A stretch of DNA of 36,334 nucleotides from Sedimentisphaerales bacterium. GTDB taxonomy: Bacteria > Planctomycetota > Phycisphaerae > Sedimentisphaerales > Anaerohalosphaeraceae. The notes under the pieces were generated by a model. The model was not told where the DNA came from. It was given only the letters and a program-made list of their open reading frames with translations, and did no database searches. Location of the stretch: positions 1-36,334 of the forward strand of contig JAFGPC010000027.1 in the NCBI GenBank assembly GCA_016926155.1, written 5' to 3'. Shown here piece by piece: positions 1 through 19,490 of this stretch. The position numbers were made by a program, and so were the translations under genes. Position 1 is the stretch's first letter, and every line of letters begins with the position of its first letter.

Positions 1-554
1 CTGCGGCGTCTCAGCCACCCGACCACACCCGTTCCAATGGAAGCCAGAACCAGCGCTCCCGGAGCCGGGTTTGAAATGGGTTCCGGTGCATCCAGAGGCT
101 CATTGATCGTGAAGTTGTCGACAACAACGGCTCCCAATGCGCCATCGATACGGAACTGGATCAGATTGACATTCGTACCCCAATCCTCAAATCCGAACCA
201 GGCCAGATCCCCGGTCAGATCCACCGTCGAGGTGCCAACGCGGCTATAAACGCCACCGACCAGTTGATAACCTCGTACTTCCACCTCAACAGGGCTTGAA
301 CTCGCACTGGCCAGGTAAGCCCCATTGAACAGGAACGATCCTGACGCATTGGCGGCACGGGTGACAAGAGCGGTGTCTCCTAACGCATCATCGCTCGTCC
401 AAGGGCTGTTGTCCACGGCGCCGGCGCTGGACCAATAGAAGCCCTCATACGAACCGACCGAGCCGCTCAAACCTTCAAAACCAATGATACCCGCTGTAAC
501 CATGGACGACAACCCCAGCAAGCATCCCAACAAGAATAATCTCTTAGTAATCAT
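1..554 (-). CDS. PEP-CTERM-type secreted protein (3' end cut by window edge)
   Basis: The reading frame is open from an ATG at 554 to the left edge (184 codons seen). The start has an AAGGGAAGAG ribosome binding site and begins a signal peptide (MITKRLFLLGCLLGL...). The middle is a Ser/Gly/Val-rich beta-type domain without a recognised fold. The end has the tripartite layout of a PEP-CTERM sorting tail: a PAPGA core at residues 163-167, a hydrophobic stretch at about 167-180 and an RRR cluster at 182-184. A literal PEP also lies just before it at 157-159. PEP-CTERM proteins are cleaved by exosortases, and an exosortase gene lies 9 kb away on the same strand, so this is a plausible in-locus substrate (inference). 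A short inverted repeat (TGCCA/TGGCA, 575-593) sits in the leader. The last residues and the stop are outside the window. Confidence 0.85.
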   Translation of the reverse strand, partial: MITKRLFLLGCLLGLSSMVTAGIIGFEGLSGSVGSYEGFYWSSAGAVDNSPWTSDDALGDTALVTRAANASGSFLFNGAYLASASSSPVEVEVRGYQLVGGVYSRVGTSTVDLTGDLAWFGFEDWGTNVNLIQFRIDGALGAVVVDNFTINEPLDAPEPISNPAPGALVLASIGTGVVGWLRRR

Positions 555-1294: not shown

Positions 1295-4200
1295 TTAACG
1301 GATCCCTAGCTCCTCCTGTAATTCTGAAGCCTCGTTTACTTCATTCGCTGATAGGCCTCCACGAGTCTTGTTTAATTCCAGTGCTTTTGCCAGGTTTTCT
1401 CGTGCAGAATTGATGTCTCCGAGTTTAGATTCTGTTCTTGCCAAATGAAAATAGGAACCGGTCAATGCAGAAGCTTGCTCTGAATAGGCAAGAATACATC
1501 GTTTTAAATCCTTGGCCGATTGGGGATATTGCCGGAGGCGATAGTAAATTACTCCTCTGGTGTCTAATAGGTCGGTATAATCCGGTGACAGTGTTAATCC
1601 CTTCTGCGCCATTTGTAATGCTTCAGAGTACTTATTTTCCTGTTCGCAAAGAATCCATGCCAGGTTATTTATTGCTACTATGTTTTCCGGCTGTTCTGTC
1701 AACACTTTTCGGTAAAGCCCCACGGCCTCCTGCCAATTCCCGCTCGATTGCAAGGTGACCGCCAAAGCAAGATCAATTCTGTTTCTCTCATTCGATTTCT
1801 CAGAATTCCCGATCTGACTTCCCATGTTCCGGAGCAACCGAATGGCCTTAATGGTCTGCCCGGTTTTTACATACATCTCAGCTAAATTAACACCCACATC
1901 CAATCGATCCGGATTTTGCTCTGCCAGTCTTTCCAGCGTGAGTACTGCCATTTCGGGGGACGAGGTAAGGGCCTCGCATCGAGCTTTTAACCGTGTCAAC
2001 TCAACGCTTTTCGGAAGATATCTAAGCCCAAGATGTATGGTTTCTAAAGCCTTTATCCTTTTCCCTTCGGCCAGGTATATTTCCGCCTGCAGGGTCCATA
2101 CCTGCTCTATTTTTGGATATTTCTTGCTCAATTCAGCCAAGTCATCCAGGGCCTGTTGCGTTGCCTGGGGATCCTTTTGAGCCAACAGATATTGCGCCCG
2201 TAACAACAGAAGCTGAAGATCTTCGCCGATCAGTTGGATCGCCTTTTTTAGAACATCATAGGCTTCTTCTCGTTCGTTTTTATTCGGAGAGGCCGCCAAA
2301 AGAACAGCGGCCTGTCGTATAATCCTTTGGTCCTCAGGATACTTGACCATCGCCGGTTTTATGATTTTTATGGCATGATCGATTTGGCCGGCAAGAATAT
2401 AAAATCCTGTTTCAATCAAAACCGACTTAATCGGATCTGTCTCCATGTCTCGAACCTGCTGCATGTCTCGGGTTGCATCATCAATTCGATCTAATCGAAG
2501 ATAAGCTCTGGCCCGAAGCATATATGCCTCTGAAGTGCCAACACGTTCGATAAACTCATTGCATTCTCTTAATGCCTGCTCTGTATCGGTTCGATCCAGA
2601 TAAAGGGCAACACGCGCGGCTACTACTTCGGCGGAATCTGGCTTTCTCTGAGCCAGATCATCCAGCAGTGCCATTGCCAAATCATACTGTTTTTGTTGAA
2701 TTCGAATCCGGGCTAACACCAGTCGGGCTTGATCATTTTCAGGCATCTTGCTAAGCATGTCTTCAAGAAGCTGACCGGCAGCCGGTAATTGTTCCTTCAT
2801 TAACAAGCCCTGTATTTGCATTTCCGAAAGTCGCAACTCAGGATCATATAATTTCCGCCGGGCGGCATTCTCCAATAAGGCATCGGCTTTTTCTATTTCT
2901 CCCGCTCGATACAGTGCGGAAACGGTCGAAATGAGTAATGTCACATTGTCAGGATCGCGCGTCAGGGCATCCTGATAGTGCGCCACAGCCAAGTGATAGT
3001 CACCCTTTTTAGCTTGGCTGGCCGCCAATAGGGTTCGACTGAGCTGGTCGGCCGGATTCGTTAATAAGTTGGCCTTCAGCAAGTCAACAATTTCAGGATA
3101 ACGTTGGACAAATTGTTCACTATCAAACCACAACCGTGCCTGTTCATATCGCCATTGCCATCCTTTGTCTCCTTCTATGGCCTTGATTTGGTCGATAAAT
3201 GGCTGTAGTTTGTCTTTATATCCCGCACTCCGTGCGCTTTCAATGGCTTTTCGCAATATGGCAATATCTTGGGGCCATTCCTGGATCTGTTTGTCTAGAA
3301 TGCTGAAGGCCTTGTCAGGAAGATCAAGCTCTTTATAGACCTGTGCCAACAACAAAGCCAATTGGCGACGGTCGGAGTCACTTTCCATTTTTGAAAGACA
3401 CTCTTCAATCACTCGCGGGGACTTATGTAACTCATTTAATTGTTCGTACACTGAAACCAGATATTGTATTGGAGCAAAGCTGTCGTTATATCGAGAAACT
3501 AAAATCTCCAGTTGTTGACGAGCCTCGTCAAATCGGTCGGCCGCCATCAACACTTCCACCGGCGCCAAACCAGCGCGTACATCATTGGAAAAAGCCGTCT
3601 CCAATTCCCGTGCAAGAAGGCCGGCCTCATCCAGGTCTTTTTGGTTGCCCATCACTTTGTATCGTTGCAGGAATGCTCGAATGCGTAAAAGTCTGCATGT
3701 CACAGAGTCCGAACCTTCCTTCTCAAGAAAATCGATTCCGGACAGTAGCTTATCCCAGTCCGCCTTTGAAGGGGAAGAATCCATACCGGCAACAAAGAGT
3801 CTCGCCTGCGTCAGGATTAAAAGGGCTCTCTGATCATCAGGATGTCTCTGTAAGATTGCCTGAGCTTGCTGCATGGCTTCACCAAATTGACCGATCTCCA
3901 TTAATAATTCACTCAATAAAAGAGAAGCGCGAACAGATTCGCCCCGGCTCAGAATGTCACGAAGATGTCCGATTGCCGATTGTGTATCTTGGAGGGAATT
4001 GTACGCCACAGACAGGCGAAGGTGAAGTTCTTCCGTGTTCATTCCTTCCTGTAAAGCCCTTTGCCAATGTTCAATTGCCTCCCGATTCCGACTTTGTTTT
4101 TCAGCCAGTAATCCCTCTAAAAACTCGACTTGTCCCTTGACTATTTTCTCACGGCGCAGATCTTCAATGCATTTGCGAGCCGAATCAAAATCCTCCACGA

Positions 4201-5242
4201 GTACAAAAAGCTCTGTCGCGACAGAATATAACAGGATTTTTCCCCTACCTGTTAAACTGAGAATTTGTTGGGCTACCTCTTCCATCTCATCTCGATTCCC
4301 AACCCGTTTAACCAGCACAGCCCACAAACGCCACATGACAAGATTTTCCGGCTCATCCTGCTGCACCAAACGCAATTGCTGTCGCGCATCCTCCAACAAA
4401 GCCGCATTGATCATTACTTCCGCCAAAGACAGCTTGTCCATGATACTTTCCATATCCATCGTTTTGGCGGTGTTGATATCTTCTATTGCCCTGTCGCGGT
4501 GGCCGTTTCGCAAAAAATATTGCGAACGAACAATAAATCCTTTTACATTTATGGGATTTTCTCGTATCGCCTCATCAAGGAATTGCAGAACAAGGCCTTC
4601 CTTGTCGGCATTTGAAATCGGATCACCAAATAATTCCGGCCGTGTTTCCGCCAATTGGCCCAGCATGGCGTAAGCCATGATATCTGTCTTGTCTTCGGCG
4701 ATAATACTTTTTAAAATCGCAATCGCTTCATTGAATTTTCGCTGTTTTTGCAGGGCTGCCGCCAGTAGTCGTTTTAGTTCCTTCTCCGGACTTCGTTGCA
4801 GTTGTCGTTCTAAAACCAACTGGGCTTCCCCTGCATCCGAAATGCTGCCGGCCTGGATATAAATCTGCGCGACAGCGATTGTCGCTTCCCGTCGGATCGA
4901 ATCGATGGAATAACTATCGTCAAGACGCAGGATTTGGCGATATGCATTTCTCGCCTGGATGAGATTCTCGGGAAGGGGAGGAATTCGATTCAATTGCGCT
5001 TCGGCATATTTCATTAACATTTCGGCGTCATCAGGTTTTAAGGTTAGATAACGCCCCAATTGATCCGCCGCAAGATCCCATTGCTTGTTATTGAAGGCTT
5101 CTTTTCCAGTCGCTAAGGCCTGCTCCGCCCGTCCTCCGACATGCCAGCGGCGCAATCCGAAAATTGTTATCACCATGACAATCACTGCAATGAACAACAC
5201 CAGTAACAATTTCCAGTTAACCTTGCCTGTCGATTGTAACAT
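1295..5242 (-). CDS. Very large membrane-anchored TPR-repeat protein of the exosortase/EPS locus
   Basis: This 1315-residue protein has one N-terminal membrane segment (LLLVLFIAVIVMVITIFGL, about residues 12-30) followed almost entirely by tetratricopeptide-like helical repeats. These show typical A..L..L....P.... spacing, with classic units near the end (NNLAWILCE, DTRGVIYYRL, YFHLARTESKLGD). I chose the ATG at 5242 because it follows an AAAGGGA site and clears the upstream stop; an ATG at 5290 would overlap the sugar transferase gene. Large TPR proteins (PrsT group) commonly accompany exosortase/EPS loci. This one is longer than the usual roughly 900 residues, and I cannot assign it to that family with certainty. 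It probably faces the periplasm and acts as a scaffold for polymer export or protein sorting (inference). It is last in the co-oriented export block. Confidence 0.85.
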   Translation of the reverse strand: MLQSTGKVNWKLLLVLFIAVIVMVITIFGLRRWHVGGRAEQALATGKEAFNNKQWDLAADQLGRYLTLKPDDAEMLMKYAEAQLNRIPPLPENLIQARNAYRQILRLDDSYSIDSIRREATIAVAQIYIQAGSISDAGEAQLVLERQLQRSPEKELKRLLAAALQKQRKFNEAIAILKSIIAEDKTDIMAYAMLGQLAETRPELFGDPISNADKEGLVLQFLDEAIRENPINVKGFIVRSQYFLRNGHRDRAIEDINTAKTMDMESIMDKLSLAEVMINAALLEDARQQLRLVQQDEPENLVMWRLWAVLVKRVGNRDEMEEVAQQILSLTGRGKILLYSVATELFVLVEDFDSARKCIEDLRREKIVKGQVEFLEGLLAEKQSRNREAIEHWQRALQEGMNTEELHLRLSVAYNSLQDTQSAIGHLRDILSRGESVRASLLLSELLMEIGQFGEAMQQAQAILQRHPDDQRALLILTQARLFVAGMDSSPSKADWDKLLSGIDFLEKEGSDSVTCRLLRIRAFLQRYKVMGNQKDLDEAGLLARELETAFSNDVRAGLAPVEVLMAADRFDEARQQLEILVSRYNDSFAPIQYLVSVYEQLNELHKSPRVIEECLSKMESDSDRRQLALLLAQVYKELDLPDKAFSILDKQIQEWPQDIAILRKAIESARSAGYKDKLQPFIDQIKAIEGDKGWQWRYEQARLWFDSEQFVQRYPEIVDLLKANLLTNPADQLSRTLLAASQAKKGDYHLAVAHYQDALTRDPDNVTLLISTVSALYRAGEIEKADALLENAARRKLYDPELRLSEMQIQGLLMKEQLPAAGQLLEDMLSKMPENDQARLVLARIRIQQKQYDLAMALLDDLAQRKPDSAEVVAARVALYLDRTDTEQALRECNEFIERVGTSEAYMLRARAYLRLDRIDDATRDMQQVRDMETDPIKSVLIETGFYILAGQIDHAIKIIKPAMVKYPEDQRIIRQAAVLLAASPNKNEREEAYDVLKKAIQLIGEDLQLLLLRAQYLLAQKDPQATQQALDDLAELSKKYPKIEQVWTLQAEIYLAEGKRIKALETIHLGLRYLPKSVELTRLKARCEALTSSPEMAVLTLERLAEQNPDRLDVGVNLAEMYVKTGQTIKAIRLLRNMGSQIGNSEKSNERNRIDLALAVTLQSSGNWQEAVGLYRKVLTEQPENIVAINNLAWILCEQENKYSEALQMAQKGLTLSPDYTDLLDTRGVIYYRLRQYPQSAKDLKRCILAYSEQASALTGSYFHLARTESKLGDINSARENLAKALELNKTRGGLSANEVNEASELQEELGIR

Positions 5243-5267
5243 ATTTGGTTTTCCCTTTATGGTACTT

Positions 5268-6893
5268 TTATAATTGATCAATAAATCCATTGACTAGCTT
5301 CTGAGCCGTCTTCCAAGCAATCCACAAATCCGTCTTGATGGAAAGATGACGAACATACTGAGTGTCGTATAAAACCCATTCCTGAAAATCTCTTGAAGTA
5401 TCTCTCGTACGGCACAACTGCCACAATCCCGTAATTCCCGGTCGGACGGAGAGTCTTGCATCTCTCCAGAAAGGACATTGAGAATTCTCTGCTTCCGGAG
5501 AAGGACGAGGTCCCACAATGCTCATCTGCCCCAAAAGGACATTTAAAAACTGGGGAATTTCATCCAGACATGTGTCTCGTAAAAATTTTCCAATTGGACT
5601 GACGCGAGGATCGTTTTCCATCTTGAATTGAGGCCCATCCACCTGATTCACTGCGCGTAGTTTCTCCTGCATGGCATCCGCCTGTATCATCATAGAGCGA
5701 AATTTTAAGCAATCAAATTCCCGTCCATGCAGACCTTGACGTCTAGCGCGGTAGAATATCGGTCCCGGGGAAGTAAGTTTGATTACCATTGCAATAATCG
5801 GAAAAACAGGCAGAAACAATGTAAGAATAATCATTGATCCTATCACATCAAAAATGCGTTTCGCCATCCGGGCATAAGAATACCAAGGCCAATAACGAAA
5901 CATGTTCTGATTTTTTTGGTTAATGTTTTCATCTTTATAAATTGCTACCTGATTCTGATCCTCTATATCTAAATATCTTTTTTCCGAAAGAATCACTCTT
6001 TGACGAATTATCCTGTTAGGAGCAATGGTAAGGCCAGGACCAATGATAGAATTGCTTACCACGGCGTCTTTTTTAACTACAACTTTAGCACCTATCATAG
6101 CCGGGCCAACTACAACAGATCGATCTTCCAGTTTCACATTGTTTCCGATTCCGACTGGCCCTACGATTCTGGCTCTTTCCGAAATTCGCGTATGGTGTCC
6201 TGTTGCAAAAACCTCGTTTGTCGAAGATAAGACGTGTAACAATCCCTTTTCCGTAGACAAATGAACGACGTGTCCGGCCATACATATGGCGGAAGCGGAC
6301 AGCCCCCCGGATCGACATAAACCCAGAAATGTCTTATAATGTATGGGCAAGCGTTCACATCGACGCAGATGGTTCACGGCCTTGGAGCTGAGCCATATGT
6401 GGTGAGGCCAATTCTCCGGAAATGGAATTGGCGCTATGGAATCGCCATAGGTACGGTGAAAACCGACAATTTGACGATCAGGAGTGATTCGTACTGTTTC
6501 TCGATAGTCAACCAATGATGGTTTTACAATCATTGCCACCATATCGGTATTAATGGCATGAATGCAATTCATTGCTTTTGGCCAGTCTGGACAGGTGATA
6601 AAACATCCATTTGAGACAATCATATCCGAGACATTGCCAAACATTCCACCGTCAAGAGTCAACTCCTCATCAACAAACCGCACGGTAACTTCCGTAGAGA
6701 AAGTAAGACTCTTGGACAAACAGCCATCCATAGTTTTAGGAAATAAGACCATTGTGCGACGATAAGGCGTTAAGGCGGCTCGCTGCTGTTGCATAATCAT
6801 GCCGGCCAGTGAAGAATTGGACAAAACTTCTCGTAGGTCCACTCCATCGGTTTGGACGGCAAAGTCTTTATTGTGGAATATCACCAGATTCAT
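5268..6893 (-). CDS. Priming sugar transferase (polyprenyl-P sugar-1-P transferase) with soluble hexapeptide-repeat N-terminal module
   Basis: The C-terminal part (residues about 345-535) is a clear bacterial sugar transferase domain. It has KRIFDVIGS, a membrane helix at about 351-372, SPGPIFYRARRQG, FDCLKFRSM, GKFLRDTCLDEIPQ, SIVGPRP and RPGITGLWQL. Members move a sugar-1-phosphate onto undecaprenyl phosphate and start the repeat unit. The usual N-terminal four-helix/CoA-binding region is absent. In its place are about 340 soluble residues ending in hexapeptide-type repeats at about 232-300 (ARIVGPVGIGNNVKLED, VVVGPAMIGAKVVVKKDA), which resemble the left-handed beta-helix of sugar nucleotidyltransferases. 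The region before the repeats is only loosely nucleotidyltransferase-like and shows no intact catalytic signature. The gene starts 30 bp after the kinase gene with only a weak ribosome binding site. Confidence 0.9.
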   Translation of the reverse strand: MNLVIFHNKDFAVQTDGVDLREVLSNSSLAGMIMQQQRAALTPYRRTMVLFPKTMDGCLSKSLTFSTEVTVRFVDEELTLDGGMFGNVSDMIVSNGCFITCPDWPKAMNCIHAINTDMVAMIVKPSLVDYRETVRITPDRQIVGFHRTYGDSIAPIPFPENWPHHIWLSSKAVNHLRRCERLPIHYKTFLGLCRSGGLSASAICMAGHVVHLSTEKGLLHVLSSTNEVFATGHHTRISERARIVGPVGIGNNVKLEDRSVVVGPAMIGAKVVVKKDAVVSNSIIGPGLTIAPNRIIRQRVILSEKRYLDIEDQNQVAIYKDENINQKNQNMFRYWPWYSYARMAKRIFDVIGSMIILTLFLPVFPIIAMVIKLTSPGPIFYRARRQGLHGREFDCLKFRSMMIQADAMQEKLRAVNQVDGPQFKMENDPRVSPIGKFLRDTCLDEIPQFLNVLLGQMSIVGPRPSPEAENSQCPFWRDARLSVRPGITGLWQLCRTRDTSRDFQEWVLYDTQYVRHLSIKTDLWIAWKTAQKLVNGFIDQL

Positions 6894-6923: not shown

Positions 6924-9167
6924 TCATTCCTGCTGCAATCCTTCTTCCTCACTTTCAATAACCGAAGATGCCAGCAATAATCTTTTATCACGTTTTTTCT
7001 GTTTTTGCCGACCATATTCCCCATAACCATAACCATAACCGTAACGCCTGTAACTATGACCGACTTTGACATTATTAACCACTGTCCCCAAAACCCTGAC
7101 TCCAACCTGCTCGAGACGAACAATCGCTTCACGTAGGTCGGGTTGGCTGGTATGTCCGACGAAACTGGTCAAGATCGTGGCGTCGGCCATCTTTGCCCAA
7201 ACCAGGGCATCCGCAAACGCCAGAACCGGTGGAGTATCAATAATCACATGGTCAAAATATTTGATGATCGCTTTTATCCGTTCCGTAGTGAAGGGACGAC
7301 GGATCAAGTCCAGCGCGTCAGAAGCATTCCGATCATCAGACGCAAGAACATAGAGTCCCGTCGAGGGCACCTTGACAATGGACTGTTTCAACTCCTTTCC
7401 AAATAAATAATCCTGTAATCCTCGAGCACCACCGGGCAGGTTCAATACCATAGCCACATCAGGTTTGCGAAGATCCCCGTCAATCAATAAAACCTTGTCT
7501 CCTGTTTGGGCAAAACTTGTCGCCAGGTTAATCGAACAGGTCGTTTTACCGTCTCCGGAACTTGGACTGGTTACGGTGATAATCTTGGTTTCCCCTTGTC
7601 CGTCAAACAATCCCAGATTGGCACGAATGGTCTGGTAATCATCATTTAATTGTTGTCCAAGCAATCGCTGATCCACATCTTTGGGACTGGTGGTTGTCCC
7701 GATAATGCGGACCCCGACGCGCTTCACAATTTCTTCCGGACGGTGGAGTTTTTTATCCGATTTCGCCAGGAGGAAAGCAAAGAAAATACCCAATCCAAGA
7801 CTTCCTGCCCCCAGAGCCGCCGCCATTTTTATACGTTTGCCGGTCGCAGGGATGCTGCTGGCTGAATAGGCCACTGTTATACGGGCGGGCCGCTGGCTTT
7901 CCACCTTAATTTCCTCAATCCGCCTCGCTACTTCATTATACATTTCCTTTTTTCGCGCCAGTTGCTCCTGTTGGCTGTCAATTTCCACCTGCTTACGGCC
8001 TATGCCGATAGTTTCGGTATCCATCGCCGCCACTTCCTCACTCAATCGCTTTTCATACTGCTTGGTCTGCTCCAGTTCATTCTGAATTTCTATTAATCGA
8101 CGGTTTCTATTGGAGGCTACTTGCGAACTGAAGTTCTCATCGAATTCCGAAATCACTTCCTGGCGTCGTTGTTCCAATCTCGCTTTGAACGTATCAAGCG
8201 TCTGTTTACGACGCTGAAATTCAGGATTGGTCTCAGTTAAGGTCTCTTCCGCTTCCAATAACAATTGTTCGTATCGCTGTACGTTGGCCTGATAATTCTG
8301 AACCAATGGATCGGAATTGATGATCGCATTTCGACGCTCCATCATTTCCGTCTGACTGACGGCTTGTTCCGGCGCGTTCTTCTCCGTCGCCAAACGGGCT
8401 TCTAACGACATGCGCTGAATGCTTACCGCAATCAGTTGCGACCGAAGACTGGCAACTTGTTCAAGCATCATCTCCTGACGAGGTGTAAGCTGGCCGGTGC
8501 CATATTCGTCCAGTAATCCCCGAATCGTCGCTTCCAAATTTTGAATTTCACTCATCAAGACCTTTTGGCGATCTTCCAAAATTTTAAGGTTCTGCCCGGC
8601 CGCGGTAGATTCCTCAAATACGACAACAGCCATATACGCCTTGATTAATGCATCGATAATCTGTTCCGCTTTGGCCGGCTCCGGACTGGTCATTTTCACT
8701 TTAAGCAGTTCTGTACGGCGTTCCGGATCTAATATTATATCCCCATCCGCTATCATTTTACGCAAAGCGGAAACAGGACCGGACGCGTCCGAAAATGCCT
8801 CCGGAACAATTTGAACAATCTGATCCACAGCTCGATTCAGAACATTACTGCTGGCAATCAATTCGGCCTGCGTATTCTTATAGGCATCATAGTTGGGAAG
8901 ACGATCCTGCATCTCAAACATAATAGGGGCTACGATCGGAGCAATACGAATGGCACCTTCGGTTTCATAGTTTTTAGGCATCAGAAAAAGGATAGCCGGC
9001 ATACCGATTCCCGCAATTACAATAAAGATTAACAGGATAATCGGCCAACGCCTTAGAATAGGCCAAAGCATATCCATGGTGGATTCTTCCGGCGGCTCAG
9101 AAGTCTGCTCATACTGAATTACCTGTCCTTGGATAGGTTGCCCATCATATCGTTCCAAGTTGTTCAT
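6924..9167 (-). CDS. Wzc-like chain-length determinant / BY-type tyrosine autokinase
   Basis: This single-chain 747-residue Wzz plus BY-kinase protein controls polymer length and export in Wzy-dependent pathways. A membrane helix at about 41-63 leads into a periplasmic Wzz region with a long Gln/Glu-rich coiled coil (about 195-425). A second helix lies at about 445-468. The cytoplasmic ATPase has Walker A (SPSSGDGKTT, about 534-543), Walker A' (LLIDGDLRKP, about 560-569) and Walker B (VIIDTPP, about 641-647). A C-terminal tyrosine cluster (YRRYGYGYGYGEYG, about 706-719) is the expected autophosphorylation tail. The start is the ATG at 9167, with AAAGGGCGAG just upstream; an upstream TTG at 9194 is in frame but less likely. 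No partner OPX exporter or tyrosine phosphatase is seen in the window. Confidence 0.95.
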   Translation of the reverse strand: MNNLERYDGQPIQGQVIQYEQTSEPPEESTMDMLWPILRRWPIILLIFIVIAGIGMPAILFLMPKNYETEGAIRIAPIVAPIMFEMQDRLPNYDAYKNTQAELIASSNVLNRAVDQIVQIVPEAFSDASGPVSALRKMIADGDIILDPERRTELLKVKMTSPEPAKAEQIIDALIKAYMAVVVFEESTAAGQNLKILEDRQKVLMSEIQNLEATIRGLLDEYGTGQLTPRQEMMLEQVASLRSQLIAVSIQRMSLEARLATEKNAPEQAVSQTEMMERRNAIINSDPLVQNYQANVQRYEQLLLEAEETLTETNPEFQRRKQTLDTFKARLEQRRQEVISEFDENFSSQVASNRNRRLIEIQNELEQTKQYEKRLSEEVAAMDTETIGIGRKQVEIDSQQEQLARKKEMYNEVARRIEEIKVESQRPARITVAYSASSIPATGKRIKMAAALGAGSLGLGIFFAFLLAKSDKKLHRPEEIVKRVGVRIIGTTTSPKDVDQRLLGQQLNDDYQTIRANLGLFDGQGETKIITVTSPSSGDGKTTCSINLATSFAQTGDKVLLIDGDLRKPDVAMVLNLPGGARGLQDYLFGKELKQSIVKVPSTGLYVLASDDRNASDALDLIRRPFTTERIKAIIKYFDHVIIDTPPVLAFADALVWAKMADATILTSFVGHTSQPDLREAIVRLEQVGVRVLGTVVNNVKVGHSYRRYGYGYGYGEYGRQKQKKRDKRLLLASSVIESEEEGLQQE

Positions 9168-9252
9168 TGTCTCGCCCTTTATAGTTTCTTTCAATACTGT
9201 ATACGTTTTTATATTTCCTCGCCCAGGTCAACCGACAATATACAAAAATACA

Positions 9253-11259
9253 TCATATCTCTCGTTGTCGATAGACTACCTGAGAAGGGACGGTTTGCGA
9301 TTCAACTACCACCAGATTGGATAAGAGCCACAATTCACCAACAATAATGGCCAGCGCAATCGGCATCATTGCCAAACCGCCAAAATCATGAAATATATTC
9401 TCCCATTCCTGTCCATTAATTACCGTAAATGCGATAGAGGTCACTACAAGCCGCACCGTATTGCAAAGCAAAGCAATCGGCACACTGGAAATCATAATCA
9501 GGGCTTTTTCCCACCAAGTCCGATGAGCCACCAATGCCACAAGGCCGCTGATCACAAAAAAAGCCGTCAGCATACGAAGACCGTTACATGCTTCGGCAAC
9601 GGCAACCTGGGTGCCATCTACATTGATTACATTGCCGTCACGTCTCACATCATAACCCAGTGTTTCAAGAGAAAAAACCGCTGATACTGTCGCCCATGAT
9701 TGTAAAGGCTGAGCCGCTCTGGTCTGGATTCGATTTGGCAAAGGGATCATAAATAAAAGGAACAATAACAATCCTTTATTCTTCCAAAAGATATGCCATC
9801 CGAAAAGTAAAATAATCAGAGCATAGATCGTTCCAACCATCGCAAGACGTTCTGCGGAATCGAACATTAAAAACAATCCGAAAAACCGAAATGCTTGGGC
9901 AAGGAAAAGAAACAAGATACCCCAGCCAAGCACCGGATATAGACGGCATCGGATCAAATCATGCCGCCTCGTCCAAAGTATAAAAACAGCAATCGGGAGC
10001 ACGAGCATTCCACTGGAGTATTCATCGCTTTGCCACCACATCCGCCAAAGGTCCGTAAGCGTGGGAGACCAGAATGTCCATAAAAAAGCAAGACATAAAA
10101 GCAAAATCCCTAATATTCTCAGGGAAACAGAGGAAAAAAAGGATCCGGAATGCCATGCACTTGTCTCTGTACTCTCCAAGGCTTGTTCCTTATGATACCG
10201 CCACCAGAATGACGGACACAAACGACAAAACCATGCATCCAATATACGTGAAATGCTCTTAAAAAAACCTGCCGCCCTGGGCAGAATCTGTTGATGAGCC
10301 ATCGTGTGCCCTGGCAGGTTTTGATCTCCTTCCACAAGACATTGCTTAATCTGGGAATTTGGTCCGATTGTCGAATTCTCCCAAATAATACTTTCCACAA
10401 CCGAAGCCCCAGGAGCAACAGTAACATGCTTTCCAAGAATGCTCGGTCCCATGACGAATGCATTCTCTTGAATCCGACATTTCTCTTCCATTAAAACTGG
10501 CCCAATAATCTTCGCCGAAGGATGAATTTCAACTTGGGGCCCGGCCCATACATCGTCCTGATCATGCAAGAGATACCCAGACATTGCACTTCTATTCTTC
10601 GGAAGTGTTGCCAGAAAGGTTCTGCTCGCTTCCATATAGTCGGCCCAGGTCCGGAAATTGCCCACGGGGTGAGATAATGGTTCCATCTGAATCGATAATC
10701 CTGCCCGTACCAGTCTTGAGACCAGATTCTCCTTGAGATCGCAGTACCCTTCTTCAGGAATAAACGGTAATACCGATGTTTTACATGCATAAATCTGAGC
10801 CGGTTCACGTCTCGCAGACTGACTGTCAGAAGGAGGATTGAAAAACACAGTCAAATCGGCATCCGTTCGGAGATGGGTCTCTATTAAATCTGATATGTCC
10901 GGGGGAATAACTATTGCAGCGTGGAAAACCAGCACAATATCATCCTTAGAGGAATCCATAGCATCCCGAAGACAACCCGCTGTTCCTCGAGGCAGTTGAT
11001 CTTCGATGAAAGTAACTTCCATGTTGGAAGGGATGTTTAATGCTGTCTGTATTTCTTCTGTTTCTTCCTCGCAACAAAGAGCTATTTTTTGTATACCCTG
11101 TCGATAAAGGTGGTCCAGTAAACGCTGGAGAACCGGAACGCCGCCTATCGGCCACAAGGCACGGGGAATCCGCGAGGCTACCGGACATCGTCCAAAATCT
11201 TTGGCGCCGACCAGGATTACGGCCTTAATATTCTCCTTGTTTTGTACTGCAAAGACCAC
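9253..11259 (-). CDS. Exosortase fused to a degenerate sugar-nucleotidyltransferase/beta-helix module
   Basis: This 668-residue protein has two halves. Residues about 12-225 follow the fold order of mannose-1-phosphate guanylyltransferase-type enzymes (AVILVGAKDFGRCPV, LWPIGGVPVLQRLLDHL, RGTAGCL, FRTWADYMEAS). However, the GGxGTRL-PK signature and the NGD metal site are altered (FHAAIV). Hexapeptide repeats follow at about 240-312. Residues about 375-655 are a multi-helix exosortase with the catalytic triad intact: Cys558 in EACNGLR, Arg603 in NTVRLV and His624 in FHDFGG. Exosortases cleave PEP-CTERM tails in the inner membrane, and a PEP-CTERM-type protein is present at the left edge. The start is a GTG with an upstream AGGAG about 11 bp away. 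No separate EpsI-type gene is seen. The fusion is supported by one uninterrupted frame. Confidence 0.93.
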   Translation of the reverse strand: MVFAVQNKENIKAVILVGAKDFGRCPVASRIPRALWPIGGVPVLQRLLDHLYRQGIQKIALCCEEETEEIQTALNIPSNMEVTFIEDQLPRGTAGCLRDAMDSSKDDIVLVFHAAIVIPPDISDLIETHLRTDADLTVFFNPPSDSQSARREPAQIYACKTSVLPFIPEEGYCDLKENLVSRLVRAGLSIQMEPLSHPVGNFRTWADYMEASRTFLATLPKNRSAMSGYLLHDQDDVWAGPQVEIHPSAKIIGPVLMEEKCRIQENAFVMGPSILGKHVTVAPGASVVESIIWENSTIGPNSQIKQCLVEGDQNLPGHTMAHQQILPRAAGFFKSISRILDAWFCRLCPSFWWRYHKEQALESTETSAWHSGSFFSSVSLRILGILLLCLAFLWTFWSPTLTDLWRMWWQSDEYSSGMLVLPIAVFILWTRRHDLIRCRLYPVLGWGILFLFLAQAFRFFGLFLMFDSAERLAMVGTIYALIILLFGWHIFWKNKGLLLFLLFMIPLPNRIQTRAAQPLQSWATVSAVFSLETLGYDVRRDGNVINVDGTQVAVAEACNGLRMLTAFFVISGLVALVAHRTWWEKALIMISSVPIALLCNTVRLVVTSIAFTVINGQEWENIFHDFGGLAMMPIALAIIVGELWLLSNLVVVESQTVPSQVVYRQREI

Positions 11260-11328: not shown

Positions 11329-12117
11329 TCATTTAGAAATTCGTCTCCGGGTCGAATGGACATAGCCTACAAGATCCGCCCAAAGCCCTGGACCGGAAGC
11401 AATCAGTCCCGGTAATTGGGTATCAGCCTGGTTAAATCGCAGTTTTCGACCATTTGTATCCTGCACAGAACCCCCTGCTGCTTCCACCAGAAGCACTCCC
11501 GCAGCAACGTCCCATTCATTCTTTGGTTCCAGAGTAAACGTTGCATCGGCCAGGCCTGCCGCGACCCGTGCTAACTTGTAAGCAACCGATCCCATCGGCT
11601 CCACATGGAAAAGCCCGGTCGTGTAATTCTCCCATTGGCCACGTCGATATTCAGTCCGACTGGCTAAAACCAGAGCATCGTTTAAATTGGTTTTATCGCT
11701 GGCCTTGACAACTCGTCCATTCCGTTGAACACCCATCTGACGTGATCCCAAAAAGATTTCCCCTCGCCAGGGATTACAGACCCCTGCAGCAACGGGGACC
11801 TCATTTTCCACAAGCGCTACAGAGATACTCCACTCATCTATCCCTTCTACAAATTCACGCGTTCCATCCAGGGGGTCAACAATCCAAACACGCCGTTTGT
11901 CAAGACGAGACCGATCATCGGTTGTTTCCTCCGATAACCAGCCTTCCTCCGTTGACCATAGGTGGCGTTGCAGTATTTCATCTAATTCCCGATCCGCCTG
12001 TGTTACAGGATCTCCACCGGATTTCCGTTGCACTTCGATTTGCTCCGGTTTGTACTGCATAACTGCTTCTGTAGCGTGCTGAAAGGCTTGTTCAATTTTT
12101 TTCAGCATCTTCTGCAA
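11329..12117 (-). CDS. cysQ: 3'(2'),5'-bisphosphate nucleotidase CysQ
   Basis: This 262-residue inositol-monophosphatase-fold protein has the metal-binding motifs of the family: EET at about 79-81, DPLDGTREFVEG (about 96-107) and the C-terminal NEWDVAAGVLLVEAAGG. CysQ hydrolyses PAP (and PAPS) to AMP (APS), removing the by-product of sulfotransferases or PAPS reductase. It follows the cysCDN genes on the same strand after a 223-bp gap, consistent with a role in PAPS turnover. The start is either TTG at 12117 (AAGAGGG 7 bp upstream) or ATG at 12108 (MLKKIEQAF); I kept the former because of the ribosome binding site. Other phosphatases of the superfamily are possible, but the gene context favours CysQ. 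Confidence 0.88.
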   Translation of the reverse strand: MQKMLKKIEQAFQHATEAVMQYKPEQIEVQRKSGGDPVTQADRELDEILQRHLWSTEEGWLSEETTDDRSRLDKRRVWIVDPLDGTREFVEGIDEWSISVALVENEVPVAAGVCNPWRGEIFLGSRQMGVQRNGRVVKASDKTNLNDALVLASRTEYRRGQWENYTTGLFHVEPMGSVAYKLARVAAGLADATFTLEPKNEWDVAAGVLLVEAAGGSVQDTNGRKLRFNQADTQLPGLIASGPGLWADLVGYVHSTRRRISK

Positions 12118-12340
12118 ATGTTTGCCCTCTTAGTCGCTTGATATAACTGCTTTCACCTGTTAATTAATATAGAGCTTTGTAATGAATAGCAAGTTGGTCT
12201 TCTGATACTATGATACTCCAATTGCAGTTTTGCAACGAAATTCAAATTCCATTTTTCGATCCACTCTGTTTGCGCAAAAAAGAACCCATGACCTGAGATT
12301 TTCGCCTAAAAAACTGCCTTCTTTACTTATAGGACCATAT

Positions 12341-14176
12341 TTAAGGGCGGAAAATCACACCCTTGTCCTGAAGCAGTCGTTTGATGCCCTGAACCCCCTC
12401 CTGGACATCGTGTAATTGCGAAACAATCACGTCATGGGTTATATCGGTCGGATCGGGCCCTAACCATACTACATATATAGAATCTGTATCAACAGTGGCC
12501 CTGATCATCTCTAAATCTTTCTGGGTTAACGCGATAGCCGTCACCACTAGAATAACCCCCGCGTCCAGCATGATATTGGCCACTTCCGCCAGTCGGCGCA
12601 GATGTTCCGGACGGTTTTCATCGCTGCCGGGTTTTTTGATGTCGGCATCCACACCATATAGGATGTTTCCTATTCCCATAAAGTACACAATTTTGCCTTC
12701 CCCAAAGAGTCTGGCTTCCAACGCCCTAGCCAGGCTTTTTTTTCCAACATTCCGGCGACCCGTCACTAAGAGCAGTGTTGGTTTCTGGTTATATCTCTCA
12801 ATTCGGTCATCCCGGGAGACGGCACTGGTTTCCCAGCGATAATTTCGCTGCATGACAAAATCACGAATCCAGACTTGCTCATCCGGCACGACTTCCCGAA
12901 TGATTCCGCCGCCGCGGATTTCAAAATCGTCCACAATGACGAAACGACCGGTTGGAGCGATATCCTCTATCGGATCAAAAGCGATGGCCCGTCTTGTCCG
13001 AAGGATACAATCGGCCACATCATGATGTTCTACCTGATCTTTTTTTTGTGTTGAGGCCAGATCTGAGGCATCTATTACACTGATCACCTCTTCCAGTTCC
13101 ACCTCTTCTCTGGTAGTGCCAACCTTAATCAAATATGTTGTACCGGATACCATCGGTTTTCGGCCCATCCAGAACAGATTGACTCGAAACCGGCCAGACA
13201 CCTTGGGAGGAACTTGCCCTGCGCGAACAGCCAATTCACCTCGTGAGATATAGATTTGCTTGTCCAGTGTAAACGCAGAGGCATGCCCCGCTATAATTGT
13301 ATTCTTCGGAGGGCCGTTATAGGACTCCATTGTCTTGACTATGCCACTCTTTCCGGAAGGATAGAACACAATCTCATCCCCCACAGAAAGCTGACCCGAC
13401 TCAACCGTGCCCGCAATGATTCTGCGTTTATCGCCATGTTCCGTGAACTTATAGACATCTTGCACCGGCATCCGGAAAGGTTTATCCAGTAGTCTGGCTT
13501 CCTTAGTGAAGGAGTCGACGGCCTGAAGAACCGTCTTGCCTGTGTACCAAGGCATCTGTTTACTGACAGAGGCAATATTATCACCCATTGTCCCACTGAC
13601 AGGGATAAATTCCGCTCGCAAATGAATCTGCTCTAGAAAAGATGTGAACTCTTCAATGATCGCCTGGAACACATCTTCCCGATAACCGATCAAGTCCATT
13701 TTATTGATTAGAACCATCATCTGGCGGATTCCCAGCATGGAAATCATATACCCATGTCTTCGAGAATTTTCCTGTACTCCCTCTTCCGCATCAATTACAA
13801 GCAAAGCTGCATCGGCACGAGAAGCTCCTGTAACCATATTCTTGAGGAACTCAATATGGCCTGGTGCATCGATAATAATGTAATCACGGCGGTTTGTTTT
13901 GAAAAAGACACGTGCTGAGTCAATGGTGATTCCCTGCGACTGTTCTTCTTTGAGAGCATCCAGCAGGAAGGCGTATTCAAAGGGTTTTGCATTCCGCTTA
14001 CAGGTTTCCTTAACTTGATCGAGTTTTCCATCCGGAAGAGAATTTGTATCGACCAGCATACGTCCTATAATTGTGCTTTTTCCGTGATCCACGTGGCCTG
14101 CAATGACAATATTCATCTGCTCTTTGTGAAAGATTTCAGGCGTCATACCTCTGGCTATTTGTTTATCAGTTTGCAT
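12341..14176 (-). CDS. cysN: Sulfate adenylyltransferase large subunit with degenerate APS-kinase-like C-terminus
   Basis: This 611-residue GTPase subunit of ATP sulfurylase drives APS formation with CysD. It shows G1 GHVDHGKS (27-34), G3 DAPGH and G4 NKMD, then EF-Tu-like beta-barrel domains to about residue 450. Residues about 458-611 align in order with the APS kinase of CysNC fusions. There the Walker A reads GRRNVGKKS (473-481), with a Lys at the usual Ser/Thr position. The DGDN motif has become MGIGN (500-504), and the ISP..R substrate-binding region is altered. Kinase activity is therefore unlikely, and a separate intact cysC lies 0.9 kb upstream. The start is an ATG 16 bp after cysD. 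A 223-bp gap separates this gene from cysQ. Confidence 0.93.
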
Positions 14177-14192
14177 AACAATGGGCTTTTAA

Positions 14193-15074
14193 TTACATAT
14201 AACCGTCTCGCCGAAGCGTTTCCAATCCCCCGCCGTCCTCGGCGTCCTGAGCCCGGCCGGATCGTTCGGCAATATTGGCCAATTGGCCACTTTTTAATTC
14301 TTCGATGATCTCTTTGACATTTCGCGACTGGGACTCAATTGGGAAAGTACACGTCTTACAACCCAGCGAACGATATCGTTTACCATCCCCTTGATTATAG
14401 TATAGTGAAACAGTGGGAATCTTCTCTCGATCAATGTACTCCCAGATATTTAATTCCGTCCAATCCAGAAGTGGATGAATTCGGACATGGGTACCCGGTG
14501 CAAAATCCGTCTTGTATTGACTCCACAACTCCGGCGGCTGATCGGCAATATCCCACTCGCTTTGACGATCCCGTGCAGAAAAGTAACGTTCTTTACTTCG
14601 TGAACCTTCCTCATCCGACCGCACGCCGGCAATTACGCCCGTATACGGTTCCGTGTTTGGATCCAGTTCATATTTTCCTTCGCTGTGGTTGAACCGGTAT
14701 CTGGGCCAGCGGCCGCTGAGTGTATTCTTCAAAGCTTCGGTCTTCAAAAGGCGACAACAGGTCAGACGGTCGGCATTCCCATCGGGAAAGGTTTGCTTGG
14801 ATTCCAATGCCTCGGTATTCATCCCATAGACCATATTTAAATGCCATTGACGAGTCAGTTCGTCACGGTATTTGATCATCTCAGGGATTTTATAAGATGT
14901 GTCAATATGCACAAGCGCGAAAGGCACATGCCCTAGAAAGGCCTTCCGCGCCAGCCACAAAAGAACCGTGCTGTCCTTTCCAATGGACCATAACATGCAC
15001 AGGTTTTTAAAGTTCGCATAGGCTTCGCGAAGGATATGAATGCTGATATTTTCCAGTTGATCCAGATGTTCCAT
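14193..15074 (-). CDS. cysD: Sulfate adenylyltransferase small subunit CysD
   Basis: This 293-residue PP-loop ATP pyrophosphatase is the catalytic subunit of bacterial ATP sulfurylase (ATP + sulfate to APS + PPi). It has the pyrophosphate loop [18 protein letters not shown], the [15 protein letters not shown] segment, and the C-terminal [15 protein letters not shown] and ERSGRAQD regions typical of CysD. The second loop residue is Ile where most members have Gly (SIGKDS rather than SGGKDS), which is common in CysD. The start ATG shares one base with the stop of cysC (TGATG), so the two genes are translationally coupled. It works as a heterodimer with CysN, whose gene follows. Confidence 0.95.
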
Positions 15075-15610
15075 CAGACGTCCAGATGTTTTTTTAAATA
15101 ATTTATAATTGTTTGAACCGCTTCCTGCTCCGTCATTTTTTCTGTATCGATCACTAGTTCCGGATTTTCCGGCTCTTCGTAGGGATCATCCAAGCCGGTA
15201 AAATTTCTAACTTCTCCGGCTCGAGCTCTAGTATACAGTCCTTTGACATCACGCCTTTCGCACTCAGCCAAGGAGGCTTTCACATAGACCTCAATAAAAT
15301 TGTGGCACATTTGACGTACTTTTCGCCGGGCCTGTCGGTACGGCGAAATAAATGAACAAACTACAATAATACCATGTTTGGCCAGCAACGACGCCATAAA
15401 GCCCACCCGCAGAATGTGCTCATCTCGCGCTTCCCGGGTAAATCCGGTGGAAGGAAAATAACCACGCAACACATCCCCGTCAAGTCTCTCCACCGCTTTC
15501 CCCCCGCTTTCAAGCTCTCTGGCAATATGCCTGGCCAGAGTGGTCTTACCCGCTCCGGACAGACCGGTCAGCCAGAGAACGAGGGCATTTTTAGAAAGGA
15601 TCATGGCCAT
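15074..15610 (-). CDS. cysC: Adenylylsulfate kinase CysC
   Basis: This 178-residue APS kinase (APS + ATP to PAPS) has all key motifs intact: Walker [37 protein letters not shown], the substrate loop [14 protein letters not shown] and a C-terminal [11 protein letters not shown]. It is a stand-alone enzyme of normal length. This matters because the CysN next door carries a damaged kinase domain. It is the first gene of cysC-cysD-cysN, overlapping cysD by one base. A second in-frame ATG lies two codons in, so the exact start is uncertain by 6 bp. Confidence 0.95.
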
Positions 15611-16696: not shown

Positions 16697-19414
16697 TCAA
16701 GGATTTTGAATCGTAATCATATTGGATAGATAAGATTGCCCTCCCTGGTCTATCGAAAAGGGTATTACATGGACATTCCATTGATCACCAACATTTGTTT
16801 CCTGGGAAACCACCATATCCCCCCCCTGTTCATACAGGGCCATAATCTGCTCGGTTGACAAGACATAATCATAAATACGTACATCATCAATCCTTCCCTG
16901 CCACCGAAAACTCCCCTGGATCGCGCCAATTAACAAACCGGGGTCAGTCACATCCCTGCTGGATGCACCGGCAACCGCACGATCTACCTCAATTCCGTTT
17001 TTGTAGAGAATCATAGTACCCGTGGAATAGTCATATGTAACGGCTGCAAAATACCAAACATTATTTTCCAGTGGTTGACCATCCTGTACGATTGTCCAGT
17101 TGCCTGAAGGATGCCCCGCCATAAGCCGTCCATCGGTATTTGCTCGGAATGAGTGTCCACCAGTGGAATATTGTGAGCCGCTCAGAATATTATTATAATC
17201 GTTTCCCGTTCGATAAATCCATGCGGCCTTTGTATAGGAAGAAAGGGTAGGAAATACGATCGTTGTGTTTAACTGATTCTGCCCGTCAAACTCAAAACAA
17301 CCGCCTCCATTATACCCTCCTGACGGCAAGAAGACAGGAGTTCCATAGGGAGTAGATGTAGCGCCATTGCCGGAGAAATCGAGGAGTGCGATTTCGGATC
17401 CGCCTTCAAACGGCATATACGCTCGCATCCAAGGCTGTCCATCTTTTTGCCAGGCTACGGCGGCCGTGATGGCATTGCCGGCCAGATCGAAACTGCAGGT
17501 CAGATTATCCGTCGTAAGACCGTTTCCTGAGGTGGAGGAAAGAACCAGATTTTCAATCTGGGGAAAAAGTACTTCGGACACCGAGATTGTATACTCCTGC
17601 AGGTCCTGTCCGCCCTGATTTGTTGCAATAATCGAAACTTCGAAGTTTCCTACAGCAGCGGGAATCCACTCAATCCGTCCCGTAACTTCATCCATGTCCA
17701 TCCCCGCAGGCGCCTTGGAAAGAGAATAAACAGGTAAAGGAATCCCATCCGCCATTACATCATAAACATACATATTCCCTAATGAGGCAAGGAGCAAGGG
17801 ATTGGATGTAATGGAAGGAGGTAACGGTGATACATGCAGTGTAAATGATTGTTCATCGATTCCGGCCAGATTGGAGGCTCGGACTGTAATATCGAAGTCT
17901 CCAATCATGGTCGGCATCCATGTCAAACGACCTGTATGGATATCGATCGCCATGTCCACCGGTCCAACCATCAATTCATATGCCGGGATCGGATTACCCG
18001 TTGCCTGAACATCATAAGAGTATAACTGACCGGCTTCTGTTTGGAGCGTCGGCAACGAGGAAATCAAAGGAGCAGTCGGCTCACTGACAGTCAGTGTAAA
18101 TGCCTGTGCGTCTTCTCCTTTATCGTTAAATGCACGGACAAGTACTTCAAAGGATCCACTTTGAGCCGGCAGCCATGTAATCATTCCCAAGATACCATCA
18201 ATCTGCATTCCCACTGGATAGACATCCAGGGCATATTGTGGTGCAGGGTCTCCTGTTGCTTCCACGTCATAATTGTAATCCAGCCCGACTGTTCCTTGAA
18301 GTATAGGCTCAGATACTATTGTAGCACTACCATACGGATCCAGAGCCCATCCCATTGCAAGCTGGGAAAAATCCTGGATATCAATCACGCCATCGCCGCC
18401 ATCCGGCCTGAGATCGAAAACCGGATTCCAGTTTTCATCGCCCTGGTCAGACAGCCAATTTGCCGCCATGGAGGCCATGTCCTGTATATCCACCCGACAA
18501 TCTCCGGTCACATCCCCAGGGGGCGCCTGGCAACCGTCCCATCCGGCGATACGCGCCAGAAGCCACCACATGGCCTTGGCTTTCATGACACATGCTGCCT
18601 GATTTATATGACACCAACCTTCACCTCCATCATAATCCCCCAACCAATCAGAATGTATGAGAGGCACTTCTATTCCATATAACCAGTCCACAAATCCGTT
18701 TTGTTCCGACCCATCTGCTGACCATGTTTCGAGTTCCCCAAAATCAAACAAGATACGTTCATCTTGTAAAACATGGTTATATATTTGACTCCTCCTTATA
18801 AGCCAGTTGTATCCCCAATGTCCATTCTCATCAAATGGATCATAAGCCTTGTCATCTGTGTCACTCATATAAACAAATGCTGTATCTGGAAATTCAGACT
18901 GTAGGGTCTCCAGTGCATCTATATATTGGTTGATTTTATTTTCAGTTATTTCACGAAAATCCCAACTCCACGTATGCAGGATGATATCTATTCGAACTCC
19001 TTTGGATTGATGGTATTGAAGTGTACGACGAACATTCTGAATGGCCTCCAGGCCATCCCAATAATCGGTCGTATCAATATTTGTCATCCAACCATTCCCC
19101 GAATTTCTCAAGCCTCGAGAGACTCGGAGTCGACCGGAGTATGGAGGTATTTCATCATACGTCATATCAATACCAAGCCGCACATTTTCTTCCGCCAGTA
19201 TTTGCAGACCGTAGGGAATCTGTCTGCCGTGACTCTGTCCTGTATGAACGAGCACCAGTTCTTTTGCTTTCTCGGTCCAGTAAGGGGGGATTTTCCGGAT
19301 GTCGATGCAGGAATGATCTATGATATAAGACTGCGCTTCAGCCGAGTTATCCGCCGCATAGATTACACAAAAAAATACAAGAAGTGATGTAATAGCAATT
19401 CGCTTTTTTATCAT
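16697..19414 (-). CDS. Secreted multidomain protein: putative hydrolase-like N-domain, internal dockerin, three Ig-like repeats, LamG
   Basis: This 905-residue protein starts at the ATG at 19414, with GGAGGTG about 10 bp upstream; an upstream ATG at 19465 would spoil the signal peptide. The signal peptide is at 1-27 (ends ...NSAEA). Residues about 28-295 form an unrecognised domain with LVLVHTGQSHGRQ, IILHTWSWDFRE and VYMSDTDD; an SGNH-like hydrolase is possible but unproven. A dockerin-like pair of calcium loops follows at about 299-358 (GDVTGDCRVDIQDM, DGGDGVIDIQDF), unusually in the middle of the chain. Three putative Ig (He_PIG-type) repeats lie at about 365-635, each with a W.P..G.F...V.A.N core. 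A LamG/concanavalin-like domain ends the protein (about 690-880). It is probably a carbohydrate-binding extracellular protein. There is no PEP-CTERM tail. Confidence 0.88.
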   Translation of the reverse strand: MIKKRIAITSLLVFFCVIYAADNSAEAQSYIIDHSCIDIRKIPPYWTEKAKELVLVHTGQSHGRQIPYGLQILAEENVRLGIDMTYDEIPPYSGRLRVSRGLRNSGNGWMTNIDTTDYWDGLEAIQNVRRTLQYHQSKGVRIDIILHTWSWDFREITENKINQYIDALETLQSEFPDTAFVYMSDTDDKAYDPFDENGHWGYNWLIRRSQIYNHVLQDERILFDFGELETWSADGSEQNGFVDWLYGIEVPLIHSDWLGDYDGGEGWCHINQAACVMKAKAMWWLLARIAGWDGCQAPPGDVTGDCRVDIQDMASMAANWLSDQGDENWNPVFDLRPDGGDGVIDIQDFSQLAMGWALDPYGSATIVSEPILQGTVGLDYNYDVEATGDPAPQYALDVYPVGMQIDGILGMITWLPAQSGSFEVLVRAFNDKGEDAQAFTLTVSEPTAPLISSLPTLQTEAGQLYSYDVQATGNPIPAYELMVGPVDMAIDIHTGRLTWMPTMIGDFDITVRASNLAGIDEQSFTLHVSPLPPSITSNPLLLASLGNMYVYDVMADGIPLPVYSLSKAPAGMDMDEVTGRIEWIPAAVGNFEVSIIATNQGGQDLQEYTISVSEVLFPQIENLVLSSTSGNGLTTDNLTCSFDLAGNAITAAVAWQKDGQPWMRAYMPFEGGSEIALLDFSGNGATSTPYGTPVFLPSGGYNGGGCFEFDGQNQLNTTIVFPTLSSYTKAAWIYRTGNDYNNILSGSQYSTGGHSFRANTDGRLMAGHPSGNWTIVQDGQPLENNVWYFAAVTYDYSTGTMILYKNGIEVDRAVAGASSRDVTDPGLLIGAIQGSFRWQGRIDDVRIYDYVLSTEQIMALYEQGGDMVVSQETNVGDQWNVHVIPFSIDQGGQSYLSNMITIQNP

Positions 19415-19490
19415 TCCTTTCACACACCTCCAGCCGGATGTACGCCTCATCCTCCATTCAGACATTCACTTGTTTATATGAAGCATTATA

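Follow-up and report, generated by a model that had tools for sequence, protein, structure and literature searches.

The window analysed here, a stretch of 36,334 nucleotides, derives from a genome that is 96% complete and whose relatives are Phycisphaerae/Sedimentisphaerales MAGs of the phylum Planctomycetota. Its reverse strand carries a gene in which a nucleotidyltransferase-like head, a linker and an exosortase are fused, together with the other genes of an exopolysaccharide cassette (Table 1). Within a single frame, Pfam detected NTP_transferase at residues 12–144 (E 1.2e-8), LbH/hexapeptide repeats at residues 236–318 and Exosortase_EpsH at residues 390–646 (E 4.9e-53). The description of all modules as one unbroken frame, given in an earlier note made from the sequence alone, was thus borne out.

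Table 1. Positions of the fused gene, its parts and the remaining cassette genes in the window.
Feature	Position	Strand	Remarks
Fused pseudo-nucleotidyltransferase/LbH head, linker and exosortase	9253..11259	−	668 aa; GTG start, 668 codons, no internal stop; full-length homologs
Nucleotidyltransferase-like (GT-A fold) part of head	10585..11229	−	residues 11–225; catalytic residues lost, GxAG kept
Left-handed beta-helix (hexapeptide) part of head	10306..10554	−	residues 236–318; LbH_EIF2B, Hexapep
Linker, low-confidence, fast-evolving	10135..10284	−	residues about 326–375; pLDDT < 50
Exosortase domain	9304..10110	−	residues about 384–652; TIGR02602 above cut-off
Exosortase Cys558	9586–9588	−	
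Exosortase Arg603	9451–9453	−	
Exosortase His624	9388–9390	−	
Wzz-type chain-length protein, C-terminal BY-type tyrosine autokinase	6924..9194	−	cassette gene 2; conserved order
Monotopic PGT (initiating polyprenyl-phosphate sugar-phosphate transferase), likewise bearing a degenerate nucleotidyltransferase/LbH head	5268..6893	−	
PGT head	5937..6893	−	residues 1–319; GMPPA/GMPPB fold (model)
PGT catalytic domain Bac_transf	5271..5894	−	residues about 334–541; PF02397 E 5e-60
PrsT-like TPR protein, final cassette gene	1295..5290	−	TIGR02917 252 bits, under the 312 cut-off; conserved position

The exosortase domain exceeded the cut-offs of TIGR02602 (128.7 against 105.55), PF09721 (180.5 against 25.7) and TIGR04178, and Cys558, Arg603 and His624 were invariant in an alignment of 14 sequences, in agreement with the earlier description of a complete exosortase. 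The nearest subfamily by E-value was XrtA, and the fused protein scored 149.3 against its profile TIGR03109, below the cut-off of 208. About six to seven membrane segments were separable by hydropathy and about ten helices were present in the predicted model, the expected number being about eight.

With the exosortase/EpsH family, the protein shares the complete C-terminal domain, the invariant Cys/Arg/His residues, the presence of PEP-CTERM proteins in the genome (27 matches to PF07589 above cut-off) and a location in an exopolysaccharide locus that also encodes a TPR protein of PrsT-like type. It differs from that family in bearing a soluble-type N-terminal head of 330 residues and in its score under the XrtA cut-off, and no EpsI-like family was found among the window ORFs scanned. 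An ORF at the very start of the window (3–68, reverse strand) gave a PEP-CTERM match below threshold. A second, stand-alone exosortase is present in the same genome (L002, G000:C212), as it is in most related genomes.

Exosortases have been known beside exopolysaccharide genes since 2006, and we know of no established reason for this gene neighbourhood. Haft et al. (2006) relate that disruption of EpsH had no effect on methanolan production (PMC1569441).

Other genes of the reverse strand were also annotated. Genes at 11329–15610 for CysQ, CysD, a free-standing APS kinase and a CysN that ends in a partial APS-kinase-like tail adjoin the exopolysaccharide genes, suggesting a supply of PAPS for sulfation. 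The ORF at 16697–19465 encodes a surface-type protein that combines LamG and Ig-like domains with repeats resembling dockerin (DCRVDIQD, DGVIDIQD), while a 449-aa ORF in the polysaccharide cluster (22758–24107), which had no Pfam match, could be a polymerase.

Degenerate heads on the exosortase and on the transferase

In the predicted model of the fused protein (mean pLDDT 67), the front end adopted a nucleotidyltransferase and beta-helix fold. Residues 11–327 matched GMPPB (7d73_F) with Z 25.2 and 3.7 Å over 309 residues, and further fold matches of the same model were eIF2B epsilon and VTC1. The sequence profile of the head also matched 8x7s, a uridylyltransferase of known structure, with E 2e-39. 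The head is therefore like sugar-1-phosphate nucleotidyltransferases in its predicted fold, a GT-A-like domain with a left-handed beta-helix, but unlike these enzymes it lacks the GGxGTRL...PK signature and the NGD aspartate.

In the window, GAKDFGRCP...PR stands in place of GGxGTRL...PK, and FHAAIV in place of NGD. The loss of both signatures, which the earlier note had read from this single protein, proved to be family-wide. Among 104 non-redundant head sequences, the GTR arginine was kept in 3, the PK lysine in 4 and the NGD aspartate in 2 (L054 and the single-chain L173), and both metal-binding aspartate positions were lost in nearly all heads. An intact nucleotidyltransferase site was not encountered; the site was degenerate in every lineage.

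Other positions were strongly kept. The GxAG base-recognition loop retained its glycines in all 104 heads and its alanine in 99, and a K-E pair was kept in 101–102. G92, G95, D174 and E177, all located in what was once the base and sugar pocket, were among the most conserved positions, and the motif that replaces the lost signature, DFGRCPxxSRxxxALWP, is itself conserved. Across ten pairs, dN/dS was 0.16–0.37 for the head and 0.11–0.24 for the exosortase, with the linker above both flanking domains in most pairs. The lost catalytic residues, the kept GxAG glycines and the purifying selection together mark the head as a pseudoenzyme that has been conserved.

Stand-alone heads and single-chain head-PGT proteins were equally degenerate; the catalytic loss therefore predates the fusion, and a recent decay following it was rejected. 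In four single-chain proteins (L173, L174, L178 and L183), an A3-type head is directly fused to the PGT, which may show an ancestral arrangement.

The PGT of the cassette carries a head of its own. In a model built with 43 relatives (pLDDT 83), residues 1–319 were best matched by GMPPA (7d72_A; Z 17.6, 6.0 Å over 285 residues), followed by GMPPB (Z 17.1), and residues 334–535 matched WbaP (8t53_A; Z 17.3, 2.4 Å over 156). At the NGD position, the PGT of the window has NGC, and the consensus of its relatives has NGR. In profile-profile comparison of the two heads, the beta-helix halves aligned (probability 99.4), and the N-terminal half of the PGT alone gave no signal against the exosortase head (probability 0.3). 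Since only the beta-helix halves align by sequence, the kinship of the two N-terminal halves rests on predicted structure.

The PGT resembles the large monotopic transferases WbaP and EpsZ in its catalytic domain and in having an N-terminal domain of regulatory type. It differs from them in that this domain is predicted to be a pseudo-nucleotidyltransferase/beta-helix rather than a WbaP-type domain.

Distribution of the fusion and its association with the headed transferase

Full-length fusions were found in 14 of the 39 genomes of the host's own family, and about 75 non-redundant Planctomycetota proteins, chromosome-level records among them, share the fusion. A contig scan with a single sequence as query returned no matches, and the scan succeeded with an alignment as query: in the named genomes it yielded 80 loci, at most of which a single frame spans the head and the exosortase. 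Once duplicates had been removed, the fused form accounted for 77 of 127 exosortase rows. The fusion occurs in at least two clades of the phylum, and three genomes outside the class (L169, L170, L172) carry it in the same cassette.

A sequencing or assembly join of two genes, raised in the earlier note as a possible source of the frame, was ruled out because so many non-redundant proteins have the fusion. Many of these planctomycete homologs showed the same losses as well. Homologs are likewise not always split, though some split forms occur: head and exosortase are separate but adjacent at L097/L163 and L102, and several families from other orders also have them split. Headless orthologs of the exosortase were also present (L108, L110, L114 onward).

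Several loci were irregular. On a short contig, head, exosortase and Wzz/BY-kinase share one open frame of 1384 aa (L033:2-4153), which is either a fusion or a frameshift. Two loci titled Pelotomaculum (L039) and Candidatus Kuenenia (L085) contain a typical Phycisphaerae cassette, and these MAG names are probably wrong. Three headless exosortases (L120, L134, L145) have frames of 473–503 aa with an additional part of no assigned identity. At L057 (12005–14900), no PGT was found near the fused exosortase, which is followed by a truncated Wzz, a rearrangement or an assembly error.

In fused cassettes, the order of head-exosortase, Wzz/BY-kinase, headed PGT and TPR gene was nearly constant. Across 298 Phycisphaerae genomes, in which the headed PGT was set apart cleanly by score, the head was found in 81, the headed PGT in 67 and both in 66. 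In the sole genome with a headed PGT and no head (G248), the contig ends exactly at the expected site of the fused gene. Where a genome had two heads, it mostly also had two headed PGTs, and the contigs of the two matched (G038, G104, G115, G183, G228, G290, G305, G315, G316).

The association extended to stand-alone heads, which mostly precede a PGT, or Wzz/BY-kinase and a PGT. A downstream PGT on the same strand lay within 6 kb in 22 of 26 non-redundant cases; of the remaining four, three reach a contig end and one (L177), with no PGT nearby, is a true exception. Among 87 complete exosortase loci, a PGT was present in 62 of 63 with a head and in none of 24 without one; these counts are not independent, and a phylogenetically independent test did not reach significance because the tree supplies no more than two to three contrasts, each of which points the expected way. 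Two of the headless loci (L108, L110), both also without a PGT, nest within the fused clade, where support is modest. In a second fused clade, represented by five complete loci, the PGT head had no detectable beta-helix.

From these observations, the main partner of the head is the initiating PGT rather than the exosortase. As the head tracks the PGT, it was probably borrowed from the machinery of exopolysaccharide initiation and is not mainly an exosortase accessory. Partial correlations of the head's rate covariation were 0.34 with the BY-kinase, 0.25 with the TPR protein, 0.20 with the PGT head and 0.06 with its own exosortase. The weak covariation with the BY-kinase, and none with the exosortase, indicates that the tie to the exosortase may be recent or loose. 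The signal was too weak for a partner of the head to be named from it.

Interpretation and alternative explanations

The presence of dead heads on both proteins suggests a coupling of protein sorting and polysaccharide initiation, either physical or regulatory. Three precedents led to the proposal that the heads pair and sense. GMPPA is described as a paralogue of GMPPB that lacks catalytic activity, binds GDP-mannose and regulates its partner (PMC11228364). Nucleotide sensing has been reported for the regulatory N-terminal domain of WbaP, a large PGT (UMP IC50 4.1 uM; PMC10942596), and a partner protein activates EpsZ (PMC12802240).

According to the preferred explanation, to which a probability of roughly one half was assigned, the heads pair in the manner of GMPPA and GMPPB and tie the exosortase to the PGT assembly. 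The head would be a dead module of nucleotide-sugar pyrophosphorylase type, a pseudo-nucleotidyltransferase with a left-handed beta-helix, that arose as the partner of an exopolysaccharide-initiating monotopic PGT bearing a second degenerate head. The two heads would most likely pair on the cytoplasmic side of the inner membrane and either control the PGT or serve as its scaffold, and they would probably still bind a nucleotide or NDP-sugar through the kept GxAG loop; for binding of an NDP-sugar or a paralogue as in GMPPA, this loop is only suggestive. The fusion would then tether the exosortase to the PGT/Wzz/BY-kinase assembly, and PEP-CTERM processing would consequently coincide in place and time with the start of exopolysaccharide synthesis. 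This reading is favoured by the predicted folds of both heads, the dead but selected head with its kept base loop, the cassette order, the co-occurrence of head and headed PGT and the PEP-CTERM proteins of the genome. Counting against it are the small number of independent contrasts, the PGT head of the second fused clade, the weak rate covariation, the lack of a nearby PGT at L057 and L177, and the unaltered methanolan production after EpsH disruption.

The heads are like GMPPA/GMPPB and eIF2B gamma/epsilon in their predicted two-domain fold, in the degenerate partner or partners and in their putatively paired, paralogous heads. They are unlike them in being carried by membrane proteins that belong to a bacterial exopolysaccharide system and, compared with GMPPA/GMPPB, in the additional degeneracy of the PGT head.

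The earlier interpretation, a sensor for sugar nucleotides or a docking module tying protein sorting to glycan supply, stood in so far as the fusion is genuine and widespread and the site degenerate; it had overlooked the second degenerate head on the neighbouring PGT. Its sensor version, in which the head gates the exosortase alone by glycan supply and makes no contact with the PGT, agrees with the GxAG glycines and K-E pair, with the reported nucleotide sensing of WbaP and with the ligand binding described for GMPPA. However, many genomes have the head beside a PGT and no linked exosortase, and the head was already dead before the fusion, so that exosortase gating cannot have been its original role; we consider this version unlikely. 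Similarly doubtful is a pure docking scaffold, in which ligand binding would also be lost and the heads would only hold exosortase, PGT and Wzz/BY-kinase together. The loss of catalytic residues, the constant cassette and the recurrence of the fold in two of its membrane proteins accord with it, as does the participation of beta-helix domains of known relatives in oligomerisation, but the conserved G92, G95, D174 and E177 are left unexplained by docking alone.

Continued activity of a non-canonical kind, whether as a nucleotidyltransferase that works with replaced residues or as an acyltransferase of the beta-helix type, might account for the purifying selection and for the conserved DFGRCPxxSRxxxALWP motif. 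It appears highly improbable, since the metal-binding aspartates and the catalytic arginine and lysine are lost in nearly all heads, the helix is short and the top matches are not acyltransferase-specific families. Even less credible is a neutral relic, a harmless fusion with a decaying domain: the exosortase domain is indeed complete without a head, as in the headless orthologs, but the dN/dS of the head, the dozens of divergent species, the occurrence in at least two clades and the strict linkage to the headed PGT all stand against it.

The pairing of heads may also be extended to a two-headed, NDP-sugar-responsive pseudo-pyrophosphorylase hub, with one head on the initiating PGT and the other either alone or on the exosortase, that, in Phycisphaerae and some relatives, would start exopolysaccharide synthesis and switch on the exosortase at the same site. 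This extension is put forward tentatively; if true, it would link protein sorting physically with polysaccharide assembly.

The exosortase, the PGT and the head fold each are of an already known kind. No description of an exosortase-nucleotidyltransferase fusion was found in the literature searched, and the earlier remark that no described exosortase with such a front end was known was consistent with this. To the extent of that literature, neither the fusion to an exosortase nor the occurrence of matching dead heads on two membrane proteins encoded in the same operon has been described. O'Toole et al. (2021) reportedly dealt with monotopic PGTs fused to pathway and regulatory domains; neither the exosortase fusion nor the head pair is known to be among them.

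The system adds a bacterial, membrane-bound case of putatively paired pseudo-pyrophosphorylases, for which GMPPA/GMPPB and eIF2B are the best-known other examples. Because an exosortase is fused, in a conserved manner, to the partner module of a polysaccharide-initiating enzyme, the link between exosortases and exopolysaccharide has become directly testable.
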